Assembly (NCBI GenBank): GCA_030622755.1
Contig: JAUXFT010000014.1
Coordinates: 1-36,091, forward strand
Direction: 5' to 3'
Length of the DNA stretch: 36,091 nucleotides
From: Aestuariirhabdus sp.
Lineage (GTDB): Bacteria; Pseudomonadota; Gammaproteobacteria; Pseudomonadales; Aestuariirhabdaceae
Shown: positions 13,966-34,870 of the stretch, piece by piece
Numbering within the stretch: position 1 is the stretch's first letter
Layout of the letters: each line of letters opens with the position of its first letter
Made by a program: the position numbers and the translations under genes
The notes under the pieces: generated by a model
Databases searched by the model: none
What the model saw: only the letters and a program-made list of their open reading frames with translations
Told to the model about the DNA's origin: nothing

Positions 13966-14565
13966 CTAGTCAAAAAATAGCAGTAACTGCAATCTCAGCC
14001 TGTCCTGAATCACATTATTTTCGTCCGTTGTGGATTCTGCCAGGGAGACGCCAGAGTTGATTATCGAATCGTATGCGTTGTTGTATAACAAGGTATTGAG
14101 GATGTTGTCAGTCAAAAGGCTGGGAGCGTTGTCGATTTGTTGAAGAGACGCTTGTTTCGGTAACTGTGACACCAGAGAAAAAACTTTCTTGTGCAGCCGC
14201 CGCATGGACTTTACCAGCTGAGGTTTGATGCTTGGGTAGTTAGCACCGAGCCCTACCATGTCCTGAGTGATAAAGCGGTATTCGACAAAAAGGTCAGCAA
14301 TAATTTCCAGGTAAGTTAATAAGTGCTTGGCATTTAATTCCTTATCAGTAGAGAAACTATCAATAACCACGATAAGGTTGGAATGGAATCGCGCATAAAG
14401 TTCTTCAACAATCTCTTCCTTACCCTTGAAATGATAATAGAGATTACCAGGGCTGATATTCATCTCATGGGCAAGATCGACACTGTTAACCAGACGTTCA
14501 CCGCGTTCATTAAAAAGCAGTAAAGCAATATCGATAATAAGATCGCGAGTTTTTATTTTGGCCAT
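13966..14565 (-). CDS. TetR-family transcriptional regulator
   Basis: A 199-residue regulator with a clear TetR N-terminal DNA-binding domain: the first helices (IIDIALLLFNERGERLVNS) and a helix-turn-helix ending in the hallmark ISPGNLYYHFKGKEEIVEELY (about 32-52). The C-terminal ligand domain is unremarkable and gives no clue to the effector. It is the last minus-strand gene of the hydrolase, WS/DGAT, patatin and phasin series. In Pseudomonas a TetR-type protein (PhaD) controls phasin genes, so control of the neighbouring phasins, with an acyl-CoA as possible ligand, is a reasonable inference but not shown. A palindrome 30 bases before its start could be its own operator. Confidence 0.9.
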   Translation of the reverse strand: MAKIKTRDLIIDIALLLFNERGERLVNSVDLAHEMNISPGNLYYHFKGKEEIVEELYARFHSNLIVVIDSFSTDKELNAKHLLTYLEIIADLFVEYRFITQDMVGLGANYPSIKPQLVKSMRRLHKKVFSLVSQLPKQASLQQIDNAPSLLTDNILNTLLYNNAYDSIINSGVSLAESTTDENNVIQDRLRLQLLLFFD

Positions 14566-14706: not shown

Positions 14707-15138
14707 TTAGGCGCTCTTCTTGATCTCTTTGTTCAGGGTGTCGAGCTTGCGGTTTACAGTGTTCAGTTGCTCTTTGATTTCTAACTTGGAAGAAGTAGGA
14801 ACCAAGCTTTTCAGTTTTTTGATGCGGCTTTCGATGCGCTCTTCGAGATCGCTCTTGCCTTCTTTGAATTTCTCTTCAGTAGTCGTTTGCAGCTTCTCAC
14901 CACGGGCTACTAACTCGTCAAAAAACTTCTGACCGTCTTCCAGGGCTTTCTTGCTGTCGCCATTGATTTTGTCGGACAAGGTCTTGACTTCGTCAAAAGA
15001 ACGACCGTATGCACCCAGGCCGGCTAGCCAGATTTCCTTGGCAACTTTCTCGATGTTTTCAACGTTCAGCTTGCTGAAAGGACCTTCCTTTACTTCAACT
15101 TTAGTCACGGTTTTTACAGCTGCTTTTTTAGTGGTCAT
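14707..15138 (-). CDS. Phasin, PhaF/PhaI type (first of two)
   Basis: A 143-residue granule-associated protein of the PhaF/PhaI family (PF05597). The hallmark segment VAKEIWLAGLGAYGRS is at about 32-47, followed by a long amphipathic helix or coiled coil with heptad-like charged repeats (about 50-140). The N-terminus MTTKKAAVKTVTKVEVKEG is lysine-rich; there is no C-terminal AAKP histone-like domain, so it is closer to PhaI than to PhaF. Phasins coat the surface of storage inclusions and control their number and size. It is a close paralogue of the gene at 15302-15739, with the same hallmark and similar C-terminus (LDTLNKEIKKS versus LDMLNKEIKKSS). Each copy has its own promoter element and terminator, so they are separate transcription units. 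Confidence 0.92.
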   Translation of the reverse strand: MTTKKAAVKTVTKVEVKEGPFSKLNVENIEKVAKEIWLAGLGAYGRSFDEVKTLSDKINGDSKKALEDGQKFFDELVARGEKLQTTTEEKFKEGKSDLEERIESRIKKLKSLVPTSSKLEIKEQLNTVNRKLDTLNKEIKKSA

Positions 15139-15301: not shown

Positions 15302-15739
15302 CTAGGAAGATTTCTTAATTTCCTTGTTTAGCATGTCCAGCTTGCGGCTTATATCATCAAGTTGATCTTTGATATCTGGATCGTTTGATGATTTGGTTAA
15401 ATCCTTCAACTTTTCAATGCGGCTTTCAATGCGTTCCTCTAGCTCGCTCTTGCCTTCCTTGAGGCGTTTTTCAGCATCAGCTTGCAGATCTTCCCCGCGA
15501 ACGACTAATTCATCAAAAATCTTTTGACTTTCTTCCAGGGCTTTTTTGCCCTCGTCGTTGAGTTTGTCAGAAAAGTTTTTGAGTTCGTCAATAGAGCGTC
15601 CGTAAGCACCCAAACCGGCTAGCCAGATCTGTTTAGTCGCTTTTTCAATGTTTTCCGCGTTCAGCTTGGTTAAAACTCTATCTTGAGATTTAACGTCAGC
15701 TTTTACGGCTTTGGCCTTCACTGTTTTTTTAGTGGTCAT
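15302..15739 (-). CDS. Phasin, PhaF/PhaI type (second of two)
   Basis: A 145-residue paralogue of the phasin at 14707-15138. It carries ATKQIWLAGLGAYGRSID at about 34-51 and the same predicted helical body with ELEERIESRIEKLKDL. The N-terminus MTTKKTVKAKAVKADVKSQ is again lysine-rich. The pair most likely arose by tandem duplication, because the upstream 40-bp element and the downstream hairpin are duplicated too. It would coat intracellular storage bodies. Its partners upstream are a patatin lipase and a WS/DGAT, which suggests neutral-lipid bodies as an alternative to PHA granules. Confidence 0.92.
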   Translation of the reverse strand: MTTKKTVKAKAVKADVKSQDRVLTKLNAENIEKATKQIWLAGLGAYGRSIDELKNFSDKLNDEGKKALEESQKIFDELVVRGEDLQADAEKRLKEGKSELEERIESRIEKLKDLTKSSNDPDIKDQLDDISRKLDMLNKEIKKSS

Positions 15740-15959: not shown

Positions 15960-17399
15960 TCAGCCGAGTTTCCAGCCGTTTTTATCAACAATGTTATCGA
16001 GTTTACGGCTGATTTTAGTACAGTTGCTAATCATTTCAAGTCGTTCCCAGGCCGCTCTTTCACCTTCATGGAAGCGCTGCTTGATGACTTTGGCAGGCGG
16101 TCGCCCTAAAAGGTTGAAAGGGTTAAACCAGCGACTGCGTGGGAACAGGTTAATATCAGCAGTATAATCCTGAGCTAAAATGTTATAGCTCAGATATTGC
16201 ATCATGTTGATAAGTGGAGACTTCACGCGTATATAACGACGACTGAATTTTACTGCTTCGAGTGTGGTTAATTTCACTAAGCGTTTTTGCGATTGCAAAA
16301 TATTATCAATCATACTTTCGCGTTTATCAGGGTTTCCTGTTGTTGCTAAAACAGCCGGGTTAATCATGCTGGAGATAAAATGATTAACGCCATAGAGGCG
16401 AGCCAGTCGCTTGGCTGGCAGGTCATCCAGGAAGGAGCCGTCAATCCATTTTTGTCCGGGAAGATAAGGGACGGTTTCGTTTTCGGAGTTTTTGGCTTCC
16501 AGGGTTACCGGAGGGTAAATACCGTATACCGCACAGGAGGCCTGAACTGCGGAGCGAATGGTAATGTTAGGAGATGTGGTTGCATTCAGTAAGCGCGGAG
16601 CCTGGTTTGGCATCAAGCCGCTCACTGTAATATTCAGGGCACGTCCGGTTAGCTCAAATGCTTCTTCAAAGGTCAGGTCGGGAATCCAGAGCTTAATATT
16701 TTCAACCATGGTATTGATGTCAATAGCTCCAAATTTTGAAGGAGCCCTTTTTGTTTCTGAAATCTCGATCATTTGCATGTTACGAGGATCCAGCTTATCA
16801 AGGAACTCATCATCGCCATGCGTACAAGTGATGGCTGCCACAATGGAGCCAGCGCTGGATCCTGAAATAACGTGCGGTAGCTGGTTTTGCTCGAAAAGTG
16901 CTTTGATAATTCCAGCATGGAAGAAGCCAAGATTGGCCCCGCCACTCAACATCAGGGCGCTTCGTCCGTTACAGTGGCTGGCGCGCAGGAAAAAATCTTC
17001 TTTTTCGTCATCAGAAATTTGATCACTGGGTGCCTGATCGATGTCATCCAGCGCTTCCGTCAGTACGTTGAGGTACTGATGAATAAGGCTCTTGGTGCCC
17101 AGCTTTGATTTGTTGTAAAGAGAGGGTTTACCCATGCCACCGAGATTGCCGTGGATGCCCTCGTTCAGTGTGAAGAGCAGTCTTGGGTAGTCTCGACGCA
17201 TACGCAAATCACGAATGATGTCGAGTCGGTGGCGGATTGCGCGATAGTCATAGGATTCACAGGAGTCAGACTTTTTCCACTCCTCAAAGCCCATTTTAAA
17301 ATCGTAATCAGCAGCTGCTTCAGACCATTTCAAGTAGGAGCTGGCTTTGTCCATTTTGGTATTCAGGCGGTCCCGACTACTAGTTAAAAACATGTTCAT
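15960..17399 (-). CDS. Patatin-like phospholipase/triacylglycerol lipase with DUF3336 domain
   Basis: A 479-residue protein with an N-terminal DUF3336 region (about 10-140) followed by a patatin domain (about 148-340). The patatin hallmarks are the oxyanion motif SGGANLG (152-158), the nucleophile elbow GSSAG with Ser182, and the DGS motif with Asp320, the expected Ser-Asp catalytic dyad. DUF3336-patatin proteins include the yeast triacylglycerol lipases Tgl3/4/5, so hydrolysis of stored triacylglycerol or phospholipid is likely. There is no signal peptide, so it should act in the cytoplasm or on inclusions. It starts 47 bases after the WS/DGAT stop and is probably co-transcribed with it. The AAAGG site is very close to ATG 17399; the ATG two codons later (17393) has better spacing. 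Confidence 0.92.
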   Translation of the reverse strand: MNMFLTSSRDRLNTKMDKASSYLKWSEAAADYDFKMGFEEWKKSDSCESYDYRAIRHRLDIIRDLRMRRDYPRLLFTLNEGIHGNLGGMGKPSLYNKSKLGTKSLIHQYLNVLTEALDDIDQAPSDQISDDEKEDFFLRASHCNGRSALMLSGGANLGFFHAGIIKALFEQNQLPHVISGSSAGSIVAAITCTHGDDEFLDKLDPRNMQMIEISETKRAPSKFGAIDINTMVENIKLWIPDLTFEEAFELTGRALNITVSGLMPNQAPRLLNATTSPNITIRSAVQASCAVYGIYPPVTLEAKNSENETVPYLPGQKWIDGSFLDDLPAKRLARLYGVNHFISSMINPAVLATTGNPDKRESMIDNILQSQKRLVKLTTLEAVKFSRRYIRVKSPLINMMQYLSYNILAQDYTADINLFPRSRWFNPFNLLGRPPAKVIKQRFHEGERAAWERLEMISNCTKISRKLDNIVDKNGWKLG

Positions 17400-17446: not shown

Positions 17447-19150
17447 TTAGCCAGCTTTTTTAGTAGTAGTTTCAGGTGCTGATGCAGGTTTTGTATCAGT
17501 CACTGTTCTAGTTACTTCATTTATTGTTGGCTTAACGGCTGCTTTAACCGTCGGTTTTACAGCAGTTTTTGTGGCCTTCTTCACAGCGGGTTTGGTAGCT
17601 GTTTCCACTTTTGCCTTACGTGCAGTTTTCGATTTGGGTTTTGTAGCTGCTTTGGTTTTCGACATCGTGGCTGCTGTAGCTTTTTCATCAGCGTTAATGG
17701 CTTTCGCTTCAGTATCGGCTTTTTGTTTCGCTACATGTGCTTGCAATGCCTGGCGGAATTCCTCTGTTGATTGCTCCATGCATTCAATGTAGAAATCCAT
17801 GTCTTCAATGACAGCTCTATCGGCCAAAACGCCAAGGTTTATATTGTCATAAAGGCCGCTAATGCCATGGCTGACTGCTACGCCGTTTGAAATGGGAACC
17901 AGTGGAAAGCCGTTCATGACTTCGGCGCCCACGAAGTAATTTTTGTCCATTCCCACAGGGCCAGGCACATTGGTAATGATGGTGTTAAAGGGGGTAATAG
18001 CTGCCCCACTCACTTTGTTAAGCCCCCAGAATGTAGCTTTTCGCACATAGGGGGGCAGCATTTCAAGGACGTCTGTGGAGATGTCTGCAACAAGATCCCG
18101 AGCCAGTGGTACGCCTCGCTTGGTGCGCTGCAGAATCAGTTCCAATCGTTCCTGTGGGTCTTCAATATCTGTACCTATAGCAATATACATGGTACTCACC
18201 ATGTTGCCGACAGCAGCTTTGGCTGCTTCAGGGCGTACTGCAACCGGACACATGGCAATCAGTGATTGATTATCAGGTAGGGCTGAATGTTTGCTCAGGT
18301 AGCGGCGTATACCCCCAGAGATAATACTGATGAGGACATCGTTCAGGGAGGCACCTTCAACCAGTTTCCGCATTGGGATCAGTTCTTGAGCTTTCCAGTT
18401 AACTACGCCATAGGTGCGATGCGGTGAAACCGGCACGTTAAAAATGGTTGTGGGCGCGCTACCTTGATCTGGTCGTGAATCACCTCTCAGGCGGGAAAAC
18501 AGCTTTACCCCTTTAGAGGCGACAGAGTAGCCGGCTTTAATGCTGCGAAAGCCTTGAGTTAAAAGGCGTGGTGCGGTGCGTGACCACATTTCAACCTTGG
18601 TTGGGGCGCGTTCTACGTATTGGATATTATCCCGGCGACTAAACGCATGGCTTGGACTGTTTTCCAGCAGGGCGGTAGAGAGGACTACACCGCTTTTTCC
18701 GTCAGCATAGGCGTGATGCAAGCGGAGTAATACAGCAAAGCTGTTTTCCGGTACACCTTCCATATTGTTCAGACCTTCGATAATGTACAGCTCCCATGGT
18801 GCTCTGTTTTTATCGATGGAGCGAGACATGAGGCGGGAAGTGAAAATGCACAGCTGACGCCAGTCACCCGGCTGTGGAAGACCAACGTGACGCACATGGT
18901 ATTCCAGATCAAAGTTTTCATCTTCTAACCAGTAGGGATCATCAAGAGAAAGTGGTGCTTCCTGCAGGCGACGACGAAACATCGGCGTGATATTTATCTT
19001 ATCTTCGATGTATTCGAGTATTTGTTTGTGACGAATAACACCGCCTTCAACCTGGCTTTGATCGCAGATCCATAGGCCACCAATTACCATGGGTTGGTTA
19101 GGAGTTTCCATATGGTAAAACAATGAATCCAGTGGTGTTAGTTGTTGCAT
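17447..19150 (-). CDS. Wax ester synthase / diacylglycerol acyltransferase (WS/DGAT) with basic tail
   Basis: A 567-residue WS/DGAT, the bifunctional enzyme that esterifies fatty alcohol or diacylglycerol with acyl-CoA at the inner membrane or lipid-body surface. The N-terminus MQQLTPLDSLFYHMETP and the catalytic HHxxxDG motif (RLHHAYADGK, His145-His146-Asp150) are clear, as is the late-domain NVPGP motif. I choose ATG 19150 because AAAGGAAAG lies just before it and the family begins this way; ATG 19174 would add eight residues. The family normally ends near residue 470. Here about 93 more residues (475-567) form a tail rich in Lys, Ala, Thr and Pro with repeated TKPAVKKATK- and VKPTVKAAVKPT-like words, resembling the histone-like tail of PhaF phasins. 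It is followed by the patatin gene and preceded by a hydrolase. Confidence 0.94.
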   Translation of the reverse strand: MQQLTPLDSLFYHMETPNQPMVIGGLWICDQSQVEGGVIRHKQILEYIEDKINITPMFRRRLQEAPLSLDDPYWLEDENFDLEYHVRHVGLPQPGDWRQLCIFTSRLMSRSIDKNRAPWELYIIEGLNNMEGVPENSFAVLLRLHHAYADGKSGVVLSTALLENSPSHAFSRRDNIQYVERAPTKVEMWSRTAPRLLTQGFRSIKAGYSVASKGVKLFSRLRGDSRPDQGSAPTTIFNVPVSPHRTYGVVNWKAQELIPMRKLVEGASLNDVLISIISGGIRRYLSKHSALPDNQSLIAMCPVAVRPEAAKAAVGNMVSTMYIAIGTDIEDPQERLELILQRTKRGVPLARDLVADISTDVLEMLPPYVRKATFWGLNKVSGAAITPFNTIITNVPGPVGMDKNYFVGAEVMNGFPLVPISNGVAVSHGISGLYDNINLGVLADRAVIEDMDFYIECMEQSTEEFRQALQAHVAKQKADTEAKAINADEKATAATMSKTKAATKPKSKTARKAKVETATKPAVKKATKTAVKPTVKAAVKPTINEVTRTVTDTKPASAPETTTKKAG

Positions 19151-19308: not shown

Positions 19309-20250
19309 TCAATGACTCTTGTCAAGTTGAAGTGTCATAAAATCTTGCATTCGTTGTTTGGCTCGCTTGGCTTGAGGCAGCCATCCCAGCAGGGGGTATA
19401 CGTGCGGGGCTTTGGGTTCTACGGTCAAAAATACCTCTACTCCTTCCTTTGGGGCTTGCTCGGCAACGAGCAATGATCCATCAAGTAACATTTCAGTACT
19501 GCCTACCTCGAGTAATAACGGTGGCAAGCCTTCATAGGAGCCAAAAGCGGGAGACACAATGGGGTTGTAGGTTGATTCATCAAAGGGCAGCGATAGATTG
19601 CGCATCCATAATAAGAAAGTGATGTCGAAGAAAGGGTCGCGATTGGCGTTTTTCATTACCGCGGTGCCGTGAACTGTCATGTCTGTTGCAGGAGATAGCA
19701 GCATCGCCCCGATGGGCTGCTCCAGGCCTTCATCGCGAGCTTGTTTCAAAGTGCTCAACACTACATTGCCACCGGCAGAATCGCCCAGTAAAAACAATCT
19801 GCGAGGATCAATTTCCGGCAATTCTAATAGTGCCTTATAGGCGGCCAGGCCGTCGTGCTGGGCGGTAGGGATTTTATATTCCGGGCCAATGCGATATTGA
19901 ACAAGGACGGCCCGGCAACCAGTTTTGAGGCAGAAGTCAGCTATGGTTTGTCTCTGTCCTCGCATGGCGTCAAAAACGAAGCCACCGCCAGGAAAATACA
20001 AAATAACAGGTGCGTTAGCGGGTAAGTTTTCTGGAGTAAACCACTCACTCTGTAAGCCAGCAAGTTGAGTGGTGTGATGTTGTAAACCTTCAGGAACTTT
20101 CCATAAGTCAGTACGGTCAAGGCGTTTGAGCCTGTCTCTGGCTTTCTCAATCGTCATGTCAGGTTTATAGCTTTGACGAACAAACAGGCGCAAAATCAGC
20201 ATGGTCAGGAATAAAATCCAGCCACCTTCAGGACTCAGTTTGATTGTCAT
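19309..20250 (-). CDS. Alpha/beta hydrolase, HSL-like esterase
   Basis: A 313-residue member of the Abhydrolase_3/HSL group. A hydrophobic N-terminal segment (about 11-24) suggests membrane association. The oxyanion motif reads YFPGGGF (PGGG at 87-90), so the usual first His of HGGG is Pro. The nucleophile elbow is GDSAGGN with Ser158, the acidic residue is likely Asp257 (STEMLLDGS) and the His is His283 (KAPHVYPLLG). It is thus likely active on esters. It lies 158 bases upstream of WS/DGAT on the same strand and may supply or recycle acyl chains or glycerides; this role is inferred from position. Confidence 0.88.
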   Translation of the reverse strand: MTIKLSPEGGWILFLTMLILRLFVRQSYKPDMTIEKARDRLKRLDRTDLWKVPEGLQHHTTQLAGLQSEWFTPENLPANAPVILYFPGGGFVFDAMRGQRQTIADFCLKTGCRAVLVQYRIGPEYKIPTAQHDGLAAYKALLELPEIDPRRLFLLGDSAGGNVVLSTLKQARDEGLEQPIGAMLLSPATDMTVHGTAVMKNANRDPFFDITFLLWMRNLSLPFDESTYNPIVSPAFGSYEGLPPLLLEVGSTEMLLDGSLLVAEQAPKEGVEVFLTVEPKAPHVYPLLGWLPQAKRAKQRMQDFMTLQLDKSH

Positions 20251-29926: not shown

Positions 29927-30760
29927 TTATGCCGTTATTTTGGTTTTCATGCTATTTGATTCACTTTCGACTTCCAGTCCTTCTAACTCACAGTAAAGCT
30001 CAAAAAACTGACGGCTTAATTTATGGCTGGGAGCAAAATGAACCAGTGGCTTTTGTGCATGGTGAGATTCCTTCATTTTCACCGAAGATGACAGGAAACT
30101 ATCCAGTACAGGCATCTCCTCTTCACGTAATTCTTTAATCAATTCCTGAGGAAATCTTGCCTGGCTATTGTACTGATTGACCACGATGCCCTCGATAATT
30201 AACTCCTTGTTGTGGTCTTCCTGCAGCTCAACAATATTATCTATCAGGTTATAGAGGGCTTGTTTGGAGAAACTATCGCAGTCGAAGGGAACAACAACAT
30301 GGTTGGCTCCGATCAAGGCTGATTTACTGTAAAAATTGTAGTTGGGCGGGGTGTCTATATACACCCGGTCAAAATCTTCATCAAGCTCTTGCAGTGCATC
30401 CCGCAGCTTGTAGATCTTATAGCGATTTTCCAGCTCTTTTTCGATATCGTCCAGACCGGGACTGGAAGGAATCACATGGAGGTTTTCAAACGGTGTTTCG
30501 CGTACAAAGTCGATTGATTTTTTCTTCTGCGATAACCAGCGGCCAGTACTTTGCTTAAGTAAGCCGGCAATGGTGCCATCAAGAGTGCTACGGTTGTCAG
30601 GGGAGTAGGTATCAATTCCCAGATAGAAGCTGCTGTTACCTTGTACGTCCAGATCAATGACCAGTGTTTTGTAGCCCTGCGCAGCACTGATTGCTGCAAG
30701 ATTACAGGTAATACTGGATTTACCCACGCCACCTTTTTGATTGAAAATCACCCGCTGCAT
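29927..30760 (-). CDS. Orphan ParA/MinD-type ATPase
   Basis: A 277-residue P-loop ATPase of the ParA family. The deviant Walker A KGGVGKSS (9-16), the Walker A' region VIDLDVQGNSSFYL and the Walker B-like DRVYIDTPPNYNF are visible. GTAGGAGCCAGG before ATG 30760 is a strong ribosome binding site. ParA proteins move DNA or protein cargo over the nucleoid, normally with a ParB-like partner. No parB gene lies on either side; the neighbours are an ArsR regulator and a DUF1214 fragment. Possible roles are partition of a former mobile element, or positioning of a cellular cargo. The cargo cannot be named from sequence. Confidence 0.9.
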   Translation of the reverse strand: MQRVIFNQKGGVGKSSITCNLAAISAAQGYKTLVIDLDVQGNSSFYLGIDTYSPDNRSTLDGTIAGLLKQSTGRWLSQKKKSIDFVRETPFENLHVIPSSPGLDDIEKELENRYKIYKLRDALQELDEDFDRVYIDTPPNYNFYSKSALIGANHVVVPFDCDSFSKQALYNLIDNIVELQEDHNKELIIEGIVVNQYNSQARFPQELIKELREEEMPVLDSFLSSSVKMKESHHAQKPLVHFAPSHKLSRQFFELYCELEGLEVESESNSMKTKITA

Positions 30761-33227: not shown

Positions 33228-34541
33228 TTAAATGTTCAAGCGATGATTAGATTGCACTACATCGATTAAAGATTTTGGTACGCCATTAATCCCTGCAAGT
33301 TCTTTCCAGAGAGAAACGTGCTCAATGGTTTCATCAATAATGGTGTTTATTTTTCGCCGCGTAAATAGGGGGCTCATGTCCTCCAGAGAATAAAAATCTT
33401 CGCGTGAAAATGCGTCCCGTTTACCGTTGAGGCTCAGAAAGTGGCTGTTCACCCAATCACTTCCCGGTTTATAGCTGTATGCCAAATCGTAGGCGGGTGC
33501 CAATGACCACTTATCCCCATTTAATACAAAGGCAATGTTCTTGGAATGGTCATCGTGGTTTCTTGCGATGATGTTAAATGTCATTCGCTTTACGATTTGT
33601 TCTGCCTGTGATGCCGGGATGCGAAGTTGCCTGGCCACGTTAAGGACTTCAGCATAGGAATAGGCACCTGGCTTTTTGTAATCGACATGCGCCAGTCCAT
33701 TGAGCGTTTGGACATGACGTTTTTCATTACCCATTCGGTCAAACCTTTGAGTAATAAAGTGTCGACGGTTACCTTCATCCAATAGTTTGCAAGGCATCAT
33801 TTCGATACCGCAGTTTGTGGCCATGAGGTGATACACGTATTCCATTGCACCGTAGCCGAGCGGATCGCCAAAGGTTTCCTTGTTTTTGTTGTGCTCACTT
33901 ACGCCATCAAATTTCATCAGGTAATGAGTAAAGCCGTGCGGCACACTGGTCTGACCCGATCGAACTTTTGAAAAGTCTTCATTAAACGCAAGCACCGCTT
34001 TCGGCCTTGCACCGCCGGCGCTCATACCGACCGATAGTAGAGCCATCATCGCCTCGCTGTCTTCATCCCCATTTTTGCTGAGGTCAATCGAGAAATTTTC
34101 ACGCTTATCTAACATTTCCTGGGCGATACCGACCAGCGATTCTATGTGGATCTGCCGGGAAGCATTGAGGTTTTTAAGCTTCGTGGCAGGAGCGTATTCA
34201 AGAGCGCCCATGCCGCGTGCGCCGGTATACTGAAGTCGCTGCAATGGGGTTATATCGTTTGGCCGTCCACCCTTACTAGCCACCCAGGCGTTGAGTACCG
34301 CATTACCAAAATCGTCGGGGAGTGAGTCAGCAATTAATCCCGGCAGTCCTTTATAGGTTTGGTAATTGAGCCCGGGGAATGAATAAATGGCCTGCTTACC
34401 TAAAGGCATGGTAAGGGGTGATAGCTCTATACCGCGCTTTATGAAGCTGGGATGGTATTCAAATGCCCCTAAACCGGTGTCCGTATCAAAACTGACGGCC
34501 CCGGCGTCTTGGCTCAGGTATTTAACCTTGATGACTTCCAT
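33228..34541 (-). CDS. hipA: HipA-family serine/threonine kinase toxin
   Basis: A 437-residue HipA-like kinase. The N-terminal subdomain has GLPGLIADSLPDDFGNAVL, the ATP-loop region reads SVGMSAGGARPKAVLAF, and the catalytic core has NIIARNHDDHSKNIAFVL followed by the metal-binding DLAYSY segment (LAPAYDLAYS). E. coli HipA phosphorylates glutamyl-tRNA synthetase and slows growth; the target of this protein is unknown. Start ATG 34541 shares one base with the hipB stop (TAATG), the normal coupled arrangement with antitoxin first. The catalytic residues look intact, so it is probably active. Confidence 0.93.
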   Translation of the reverse strand: MEVIKVKYLSQDAGAVSFDTDTGLGAFEYHPSFIKRGIELSPLTMPLGKQAIYSFPGLNYQTYKGLPGLIADSLPDDFGNAVLNAWVASKGGRPNDITPLQRLQYTGARGMGALEYAPATKLKNLNASRQIHIESLVGIAQEMLDKRENFSIDLSKNGDEDSEAMMALLSVGMSAGGARPKAVLAFNEDFSKVRSGQTSVPHGFTHYLMKFDGVSEHNKNKETFGDPLGYGAMEYVYHLMATNCGIEMMPCKLLDEGNRRHFITQRFDRMGNEKRHVQTLNGLAHVDYKKPGAYSYAEVLNVARQLRIPASQAEQIVKRMTFNIIARNHDDHSKNIAFVLNGDKWSLAPAYDLAYSYKPGSDWVNSHFLSLNGKRDAFSREDFYSLEDMSPLFTRRKINTIIDETIEHVSLWKELAGINGVPKSLIDVVQSNHRLNI

Positions 34542-34870
34542 TACCACGCGGGATTATCCTCGTCGGGCGAGCTCCTGTGTCCGGATGCTCTTTTACGTTG
34601 TTTGCCTTGTAGTCTGGCAAGCTGAATAGGGGAAATATCCTGTGGAGGTAAAAAGTTGTTCAGTTGATCGGTCAGGTTAAGGGCCGTCATGATAGCGACA
34701 AATACCTCTAACCTACCTTTGCCTTGCTCAGAATTTAAGACTGATTTTCTGGAGATCCCGGCAATCTCAGCGACCTCCTCTTGCGAGAGGTTACAGTTAA
34801 GCCTTGCTTGCTTTAATCGCGCCCCCAGCGTTTCAGCCAGAGAGACCGATGACCTATTTGTAATATTCAT
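34541..34870 (-). CDS. hipB: HipB-like XRE-family antitoxin
   Basis: A 109-residue protein with an XRE/Cro helix-turn-helix (about 14-65): LGARLKQARLNCNLSQEEVAEIAGISRKSVLNSEQGKG. The C-terminal part (about 75-109) is basic and disordered-looking. It would bind HipA and repress the operon. I choose ATG 34870 because GGGAGC lies just before it; other in-frame starts are GTG 34909, ATG 34900 and ATG 34891, which would overlap the candidate operator. It overlaps hipA by one base. Confidence 0.9.
   Translation of the reverse strand: MNITNRSSVSLAETLGARLKQARLNCNLSQEEVAEIAGISRKSVLNSEQGKGRLEVFVAIMTALNLTDQLNNFLPPQDISPIQLARLQGKQRKRASGHRSSPDEDNPAW

Follow-up and report, generated by a model that had tools for sequence, protein, structure and literature searches.

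The window, a stretch of 36,091 nucleotides from an Aestuariirhabdus genome, carries on its reverse strand a gene (17447–19150) whose translation yields a protein of 567 residues. Its ATG start lies at 19150 with AAGGA just 5' of it, and its TAA stop occupies 17449–17447. The product matches TIGR02946 over residues 4–468 with 353.8 bits, above the NCBIfam curated cutoff of 309.95, and contains both PF03007 (residues 4–272) and PF06974 (residues 315–464). The active-site motif HHxxxDG is intact as HHAYADG, and its residues H145, H146, D150 and G151 are invariant in a 38-sequence alignment. An AlphaFold model (mean pLDDT 86, pTM 0.83) places most of the catalytic region, residues 1–470 (17741–19150, reverse strand), above pLDDT 90; its best Foldseek matches, 6chj (E 9e-32) and 7nxg (E 8e-29), are both WS/DGAT structures and are also the only sequence-related solved structures. 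We assign the protein to the known WS/DGAT family, in agreement with the initial annotation, and wax synthase/DGAT activity is predicted.

The neighbouring genes, all on the reverse strand, place this enzyme in a putative neutral-lipid storage operon that includes a patatin and phasins. A DUF3336–patatin lipase of the TAG-lipase type (15960–17399; PF11815, PF01734) lies 47 bp downstream, and loci of Halopseudomonas and Pseudomonas retain this WS/DGAT–patatin pair. Beyond it are two short phasins: phasin B (15302–15739; PF05597, 47.5 bits), which lacks a C-terminal basic tail (net −1 over the last 45 residues), and phasin A (14707–15138; PF05597, 50.5 bits), which has no K/A/P tail or repeats (net +5). 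A TetR-family regulator (13966–14565; PF13972, PF00440) adjoins the phasins. Upstream of the WS/DGAT gene is an alpha/beta hydrolase of the hormone-sensitive-lipase type (19309–20250; PF07859, 142.7 bits), with a weak GESAG-HSL match below cutoff. Terminator-like GC hairpins occur 3' of the patatin and each phasin gene (15916–15893, 15281–15262 and 14673–14656), as pattern matches whose number does not exceed that in shuffled sequence. A PHA_gran_rgn protein (PF09650; 13530–13808, forward strand) is divergent from the phasin/TetR block, and the window also encodes a HipA-like kinase (33228–34547, reverse strand) and a ParA/MinD-type AAA_31 ATPase (29927–30760, reverse strand).

The host genome (G000), assembled in 238 contigs with 87% completeness, encodes one PhaC and six WS/DGAT matches; no WS/DGAT match occurs in the two other species of the genus. 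A second patatin–phasin pair lies on another contig (C57, locus L038), where the phasin is cut by the contig end. Two WS/DGAT loci are near-identical between this genome and G400, a metagenome-assembled genome (MAG) of the Cellvibrionaceae: L004 (G000 contig C221) with L055, and L001 (G000 contig C126) with L304. One such contig and its G400 counterpart share 99.2% identity over 3.8 kb; other orthologues in these genomes are only distantly similar (L293 is 50% identical in protein). The near-identical loci suggest mis-binned contigs or recent transfer, so that counts per genome carry little weight for the window MAG; neither the window gene nor its tail is affected.

Turning to the C-terminus, residues 471–567 (17450–17740, reverse strand) form an extension of 97 residues composed of 21–22% K, 22–23% A, 19% T, 8% V and 6% P, with 8% D/E and a net charge of +15. 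K, A, T, P and V together make up 77% of it, whereas none of 20,000 draws from the composition of the core exceeded 48%, and the entropy of the extension, 3.08 bits, compares with a minimum of 3.89 in any core window of equal length; the low complexity is real and beyond chance. The net charge is less extreme, with draws from the core composition reaching +16 (mean −1.3, s.d. 4.6). The basic, low-complexity tail previously described as about 93 residues long is present and measures 97 residues beyond position 470, together with the quoted words TKPAVKKATK and VKPTVKAAVK. By DSSP on the AlphaFold model, the last helix spans residues 451–500 and so extends beyond the Pfam domain by about 30 residues (residues 471–500; 17651–17740, reverse strand). 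Predicted disorder begins at about residue 503, almost all of 508–567 has a pLDDT below 50, and the K/A/T-rich basic tail proper is placed at residues 501–567 (17450–17650, reverse strand). The clearly disordered part, as modelled, measures about 60–65 residues, less than the whole extension. A frameshift or read-through artefact is ruled out because both other forward frames contain stops in the tail and tails of this kind recur in homologues. Within the tail, synonymous codon preference is close to neutral in the gene's frame, one of the alternative frames scores slightly higher, and GC3 is 0.27, compared with 0.48 in the core.

Such tails are common on enzymes of this family. We collected 71 WS/DGAT relatives from genome contig loci by their core motifs, disregarding tails, with 427 flanking open reading frames (ORFs) as controls. 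A basic C-terminus (net charge of at least +5 in the last 40 residues) was present in 63% of the relatives versus 12% of the controls, and a strict class (net charge of at least 8 and at least 70% KRAPST in the last 40 residues) in 45% versus 0.9%; three of the four strict-class controls look like spurious GC-rich ORFs. A rank test on net charge separated relatives from controls (p 3.5e-14). The initial annotation had implied a singular fusion, a view that this frequency among the relatives overturns. In a second set of 188 unique complete WS/DGATs, chosen partly by long open frames so that length counts are biased upward, 115 had tails of at least 30 residues; the charge of these was +5 or more in 100 and −5 or less in 2. 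Tailed enzymes come from hosts such as Halieaceae, Sphingomonadaceae, Hyphomonadaceae, Parvibaculum, Woeseiaceae and ‘Deltaproteobacteria’. Other families in the order contain more distant WS/DGATs, several of which stop at the domain (L028–L030). Two alphaproteobacterial enzymes (L058; L063, 6001–7452) have the opposite of the usual end, short and strongly acidic (VEDDDGEDQTVVYLE), with a patatin in the same loci. The most extreme tails observed belong to a clade of 36 WS/DGATs (L230, L237, L242, L245, L251, L253 and L254 among them), at about 90–156 residues and net charges up to +45; these would be better test subjects than the window gene.

Across pairs with 60–70% core identity (mean 63%), the tails are only 22% identical, yet both members are basic in 253 of 278 pairs, a count that comes from redundant, related pairs. 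On a WS/DGAT tree, basic tails are scattered among the branches, and the basic or non-basic state changes at least 28 times, compared with a mean of 54 for shuffled labels. Judged from these sequences, scrambled tails with kept charge have the pattern to be expected where selection acts on the composition of a disordered region. The tail could instead be a fast-evolving, weakly constrained extension shaped by solubility, crowding or mutational drift, with no specific ligand. Almost unconserved tail sequence, lengths ranging from 0 to 156 residues, frequent gain and loss, and close orthologues with near-neutral tails or none are all consistent with such drift; however, it does not predict 100 basic against 2 acidic long tails, the contrast between relatives and flanking ORFs, or charge common to pairs whose tails have lost sequence identity, and we regard it as improbable. 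A C-terminal tail of this kind on WS/DGATs was not found described in the open-access papers searched; one paper describes Bacteroidota WS/DGATs with an SCP-2 domain at the C-terminus, which is distinct from the basic tail. The tail sets this WS/DGAT apart as a variant within a known family, and tethers of this class are already known on other proteins.

The tail had also been likened to that of PhaF phasins. In nine PhaF tails, K, A and P make up 19%, 48% and 22%, respectively, with no acidic residues; the window tail has half their Ala and a quarter of their Pro. Neither AAKP nor KPAA occurs anywhere in the window WS/DGAT sequence, and a Pfam search found no PF05597 phasin domain in the protein. 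The likeness thus stands for the histone-like basic character and fails for residue ratios and AAKP/KPAA repeats: by its sequence, the tail belongs to the same broad class as PhaF tails, with a different make-up and repeat. Composition gives no support to its descent from a PhaF tail.

We also compared tails with the presence of PhaF. Among orthologues of the window enzyme, those of Halopseudomonas and Pseudomonas have tails of 33–95 residues with net charges of −2 to +7, and the Pseudomaricurvus orthologue has a tail of 9 residues, a strongly basic tail being found on a paralogue instead. The G400 orthologue (L293) carries a KPAVKK/PAKK tail (KPAVKKSAPKKAPAKKTTAKKAVVKKPVVKKK...) of net charge +23, more extreme than that of the window, and another WS/DGAT paralogue in G400 has a tail of +31. 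The eight genomes of the orthologue group that encode PhaF have weak WS/DGAT tails (−2 to +7). No phasin other than short ones is encoded by the window genome, G400 or Pseudomaricurvus, each of which has at least one strongly basic-tailed WS/DGAT; this comparison covers few lineages, is confounded by phylogeny and includes one window-genome phasin cut by a contig end. The PhaF open frames of Halopseudomonas and Pseudomonas span 232–328, and six genomes checked have one WS/DGAT each, with a weak tail. Across the order, long PhaF-type phasins lie mainly in one family (f20), which is absent among the WS/DGAT matches listed. The proposed check, that the tail tracks the absence of PhaF, agrees with the orthologue group and breaks down in Halieaceae-type genomes. 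In these and related genomes with tailed WS/DGATs, 12 of 17 phasins have a net charge of at least +12 in the last 45 residues. Because Halieaceae-type short phasins also end in K/R/A/P tails, the WS/DGAT tail is no simple replacement for PhaF, and replacement as a general rule is ruled out by genomes with basic tails on both phasin and WS/DGAT. Short phasins with strong K/R/A/P ends occur across L268–L287 (for example L271, L272, L278 and L279), at +12 to +20 in the last 45 residues, and appear to represent a compact PhaF-like layout outside Pseudomonas.

WS/DGATs associate with membrane and lipid bodies. The window enzyme may be an ordinary membrane- or droplet-associated member of the family that brings its own polyanion-binding mooring, consisting of the helical stalk (residues 451–500) followed by the disordered basic tail. 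The catalytic domain would sit at the nascent wax-ester or TAG body, and many copies of the tail together would bind DNA without sequence specificity. The droplet would then be kept on the nucleoid and shared out with it, as PhaF, PhaM, AlgP and MLDS do for their inclusions. Thus, we propose that the tail electrostatically moors the synthase and its nascent droplet to the nucleoid, a reading to which we give a probability of a little under one half (about 0.47). Its observed base is the enzyme family, the tail, the disorder in the model, and the recurrence of tails with conserved charge on relatives. A disordered basic C-terminal tail is a trait of the granule–nucleoid tethers PhaF, PhaM, AlgP and MLDS and is present in the window WS/DGAT, and a tether to the nucleoid by this tail is plausible. 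Against the proposal, the nearest orthologues are weakly charged or, in Pseudomaricurvus, have almost no tail; the window tail is without the KPAA repeats of PhaF and AlgP; the conservation of charge comes from redundant, related pairs; and lysine-rich tails may also bind phospholipid (as in HBHA; PMC6176652), RNA or polyphosphate.

The chief rival is that the tail serves as an electrostatic anchor to the droplet monolayer or to anionic phospholipid of the inner membrane, where neutral-lipid bodies begin, with DNA uninvolved. Any disordered basic tail favours anionic surfaces, and an anchor of this kind would account for tails regardless of the PhaF-type phasins in Halieaceae-type genomes. The lysine-rich C-terminus of HBHA is needed for phosphatidylinositol binding and for normal lipid inclusions, which points to a membrane reading of the window tail; however, HBHA phosphoinositide binding required proper lysine methylation, charge alone being insufficient (PMC6176652). 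The window tail shows no apparent hydrophobic or amphipathic motif for insertion, and tails of up to 156 residues and +45 would seem to exceed the needs of simple membrane adhesion. Overall, we consider membrane anchoring rather unlikely. Binding to another polyanion, either RNA/ribosomes or polyphosphate, would couple starvation physiology with lipid synthesis. The similarly tailed AlgP is located on polyphosphate granules (PMC9239181), and lysine-rich low-complexity regions occur in RNA-binding proteins too (PMC6821194), but no gene for polyphosphate or RNA metabolism lies beside the WS/DGAT gene within the window, and this possibility appears slight.

Returning to nucleoid mooring, tethering to the nucleoid is known for PHA, for polyphosphate and for the droplets of actinobacteria; in the literature searched, no description was found of how wax and triacylglycerol bodies of Proteobacteria are positioned or shared at division. 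In Gamma-, Alpha- and ‘Deltaproteobacteria’ alike, the synthase retains a basic disordered tail. If the proposal is true, synthesis and positioning of lipid bodies would be joined in one polypeptide. More tentatively, and with doubt, the same may hold throughout Proteobacteria: the neutral-lipid synthase, and no separate coat protein, would provide the chromosomal mooring of nascent lipid bodies through a disordered basic tail with a history of repeated gain, loss and rebuilding, in parallel with PhaF, AlgP and MLDS.

The closest known systems for the catalytic part are the enzymes of 6CHJ (Marinobacter Ma2) and 7NXG (Acinetobacter AbWSD1), which have the fold, the HHxxxDG motif and both Pfam domains in common with the window WS/DGAT. 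Unlike these enzymes (455 and 463 residues), which stop at the domain end, the window WS/DGAT continues into a helical stalk and then a disordered basic tail; the model structures are thus without a part that most relatives in the clade have, which is relevant to oil production with WS/DGATs. For the tail, PhaF, AlgP and PhaM are likewise inclusion-associated proteins with a disordered, histone-like tail at the C-terminus (PMC5658603, PMC9239181, PMC13052382). The KPAA tail of AlgP positions polyphosphate granules, and its deletion disturbs granule spacing (PMC9239181); the same tail class positions inclusions in PhaF (PMC5658603). Unlike these proteins, the window WS/DGAT has no phasin domain, and its tail is Thr-rich, with less Ala and Pro and no KPAA/AAKP repeats. 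Mycobacterial HBHA, which affects lipid inclusions, also has a K/A/P-rich tail, but there the methylated tail binds phosphoinositides (PMC6176652). MLDS of Rhodococcus jostii, an HBHA homologue, bears a lysine-rich, PAKKA-type C-terminal tail on a lipid-droplet protein; this C-terminus ties lipid droplets to DNA, and a K-to-E change abolishes DNA binding (PMC5504291). A sequence scan found no exact PAKKA in the window tail, and beyond their tails the two proteins are not homologous. MLDS is a coat protein without catalytic function, whereas the window tail is on the synthase itself. Beside PhaF and AlgP, it is above all MLDS that would provide the precedent for the window tail.
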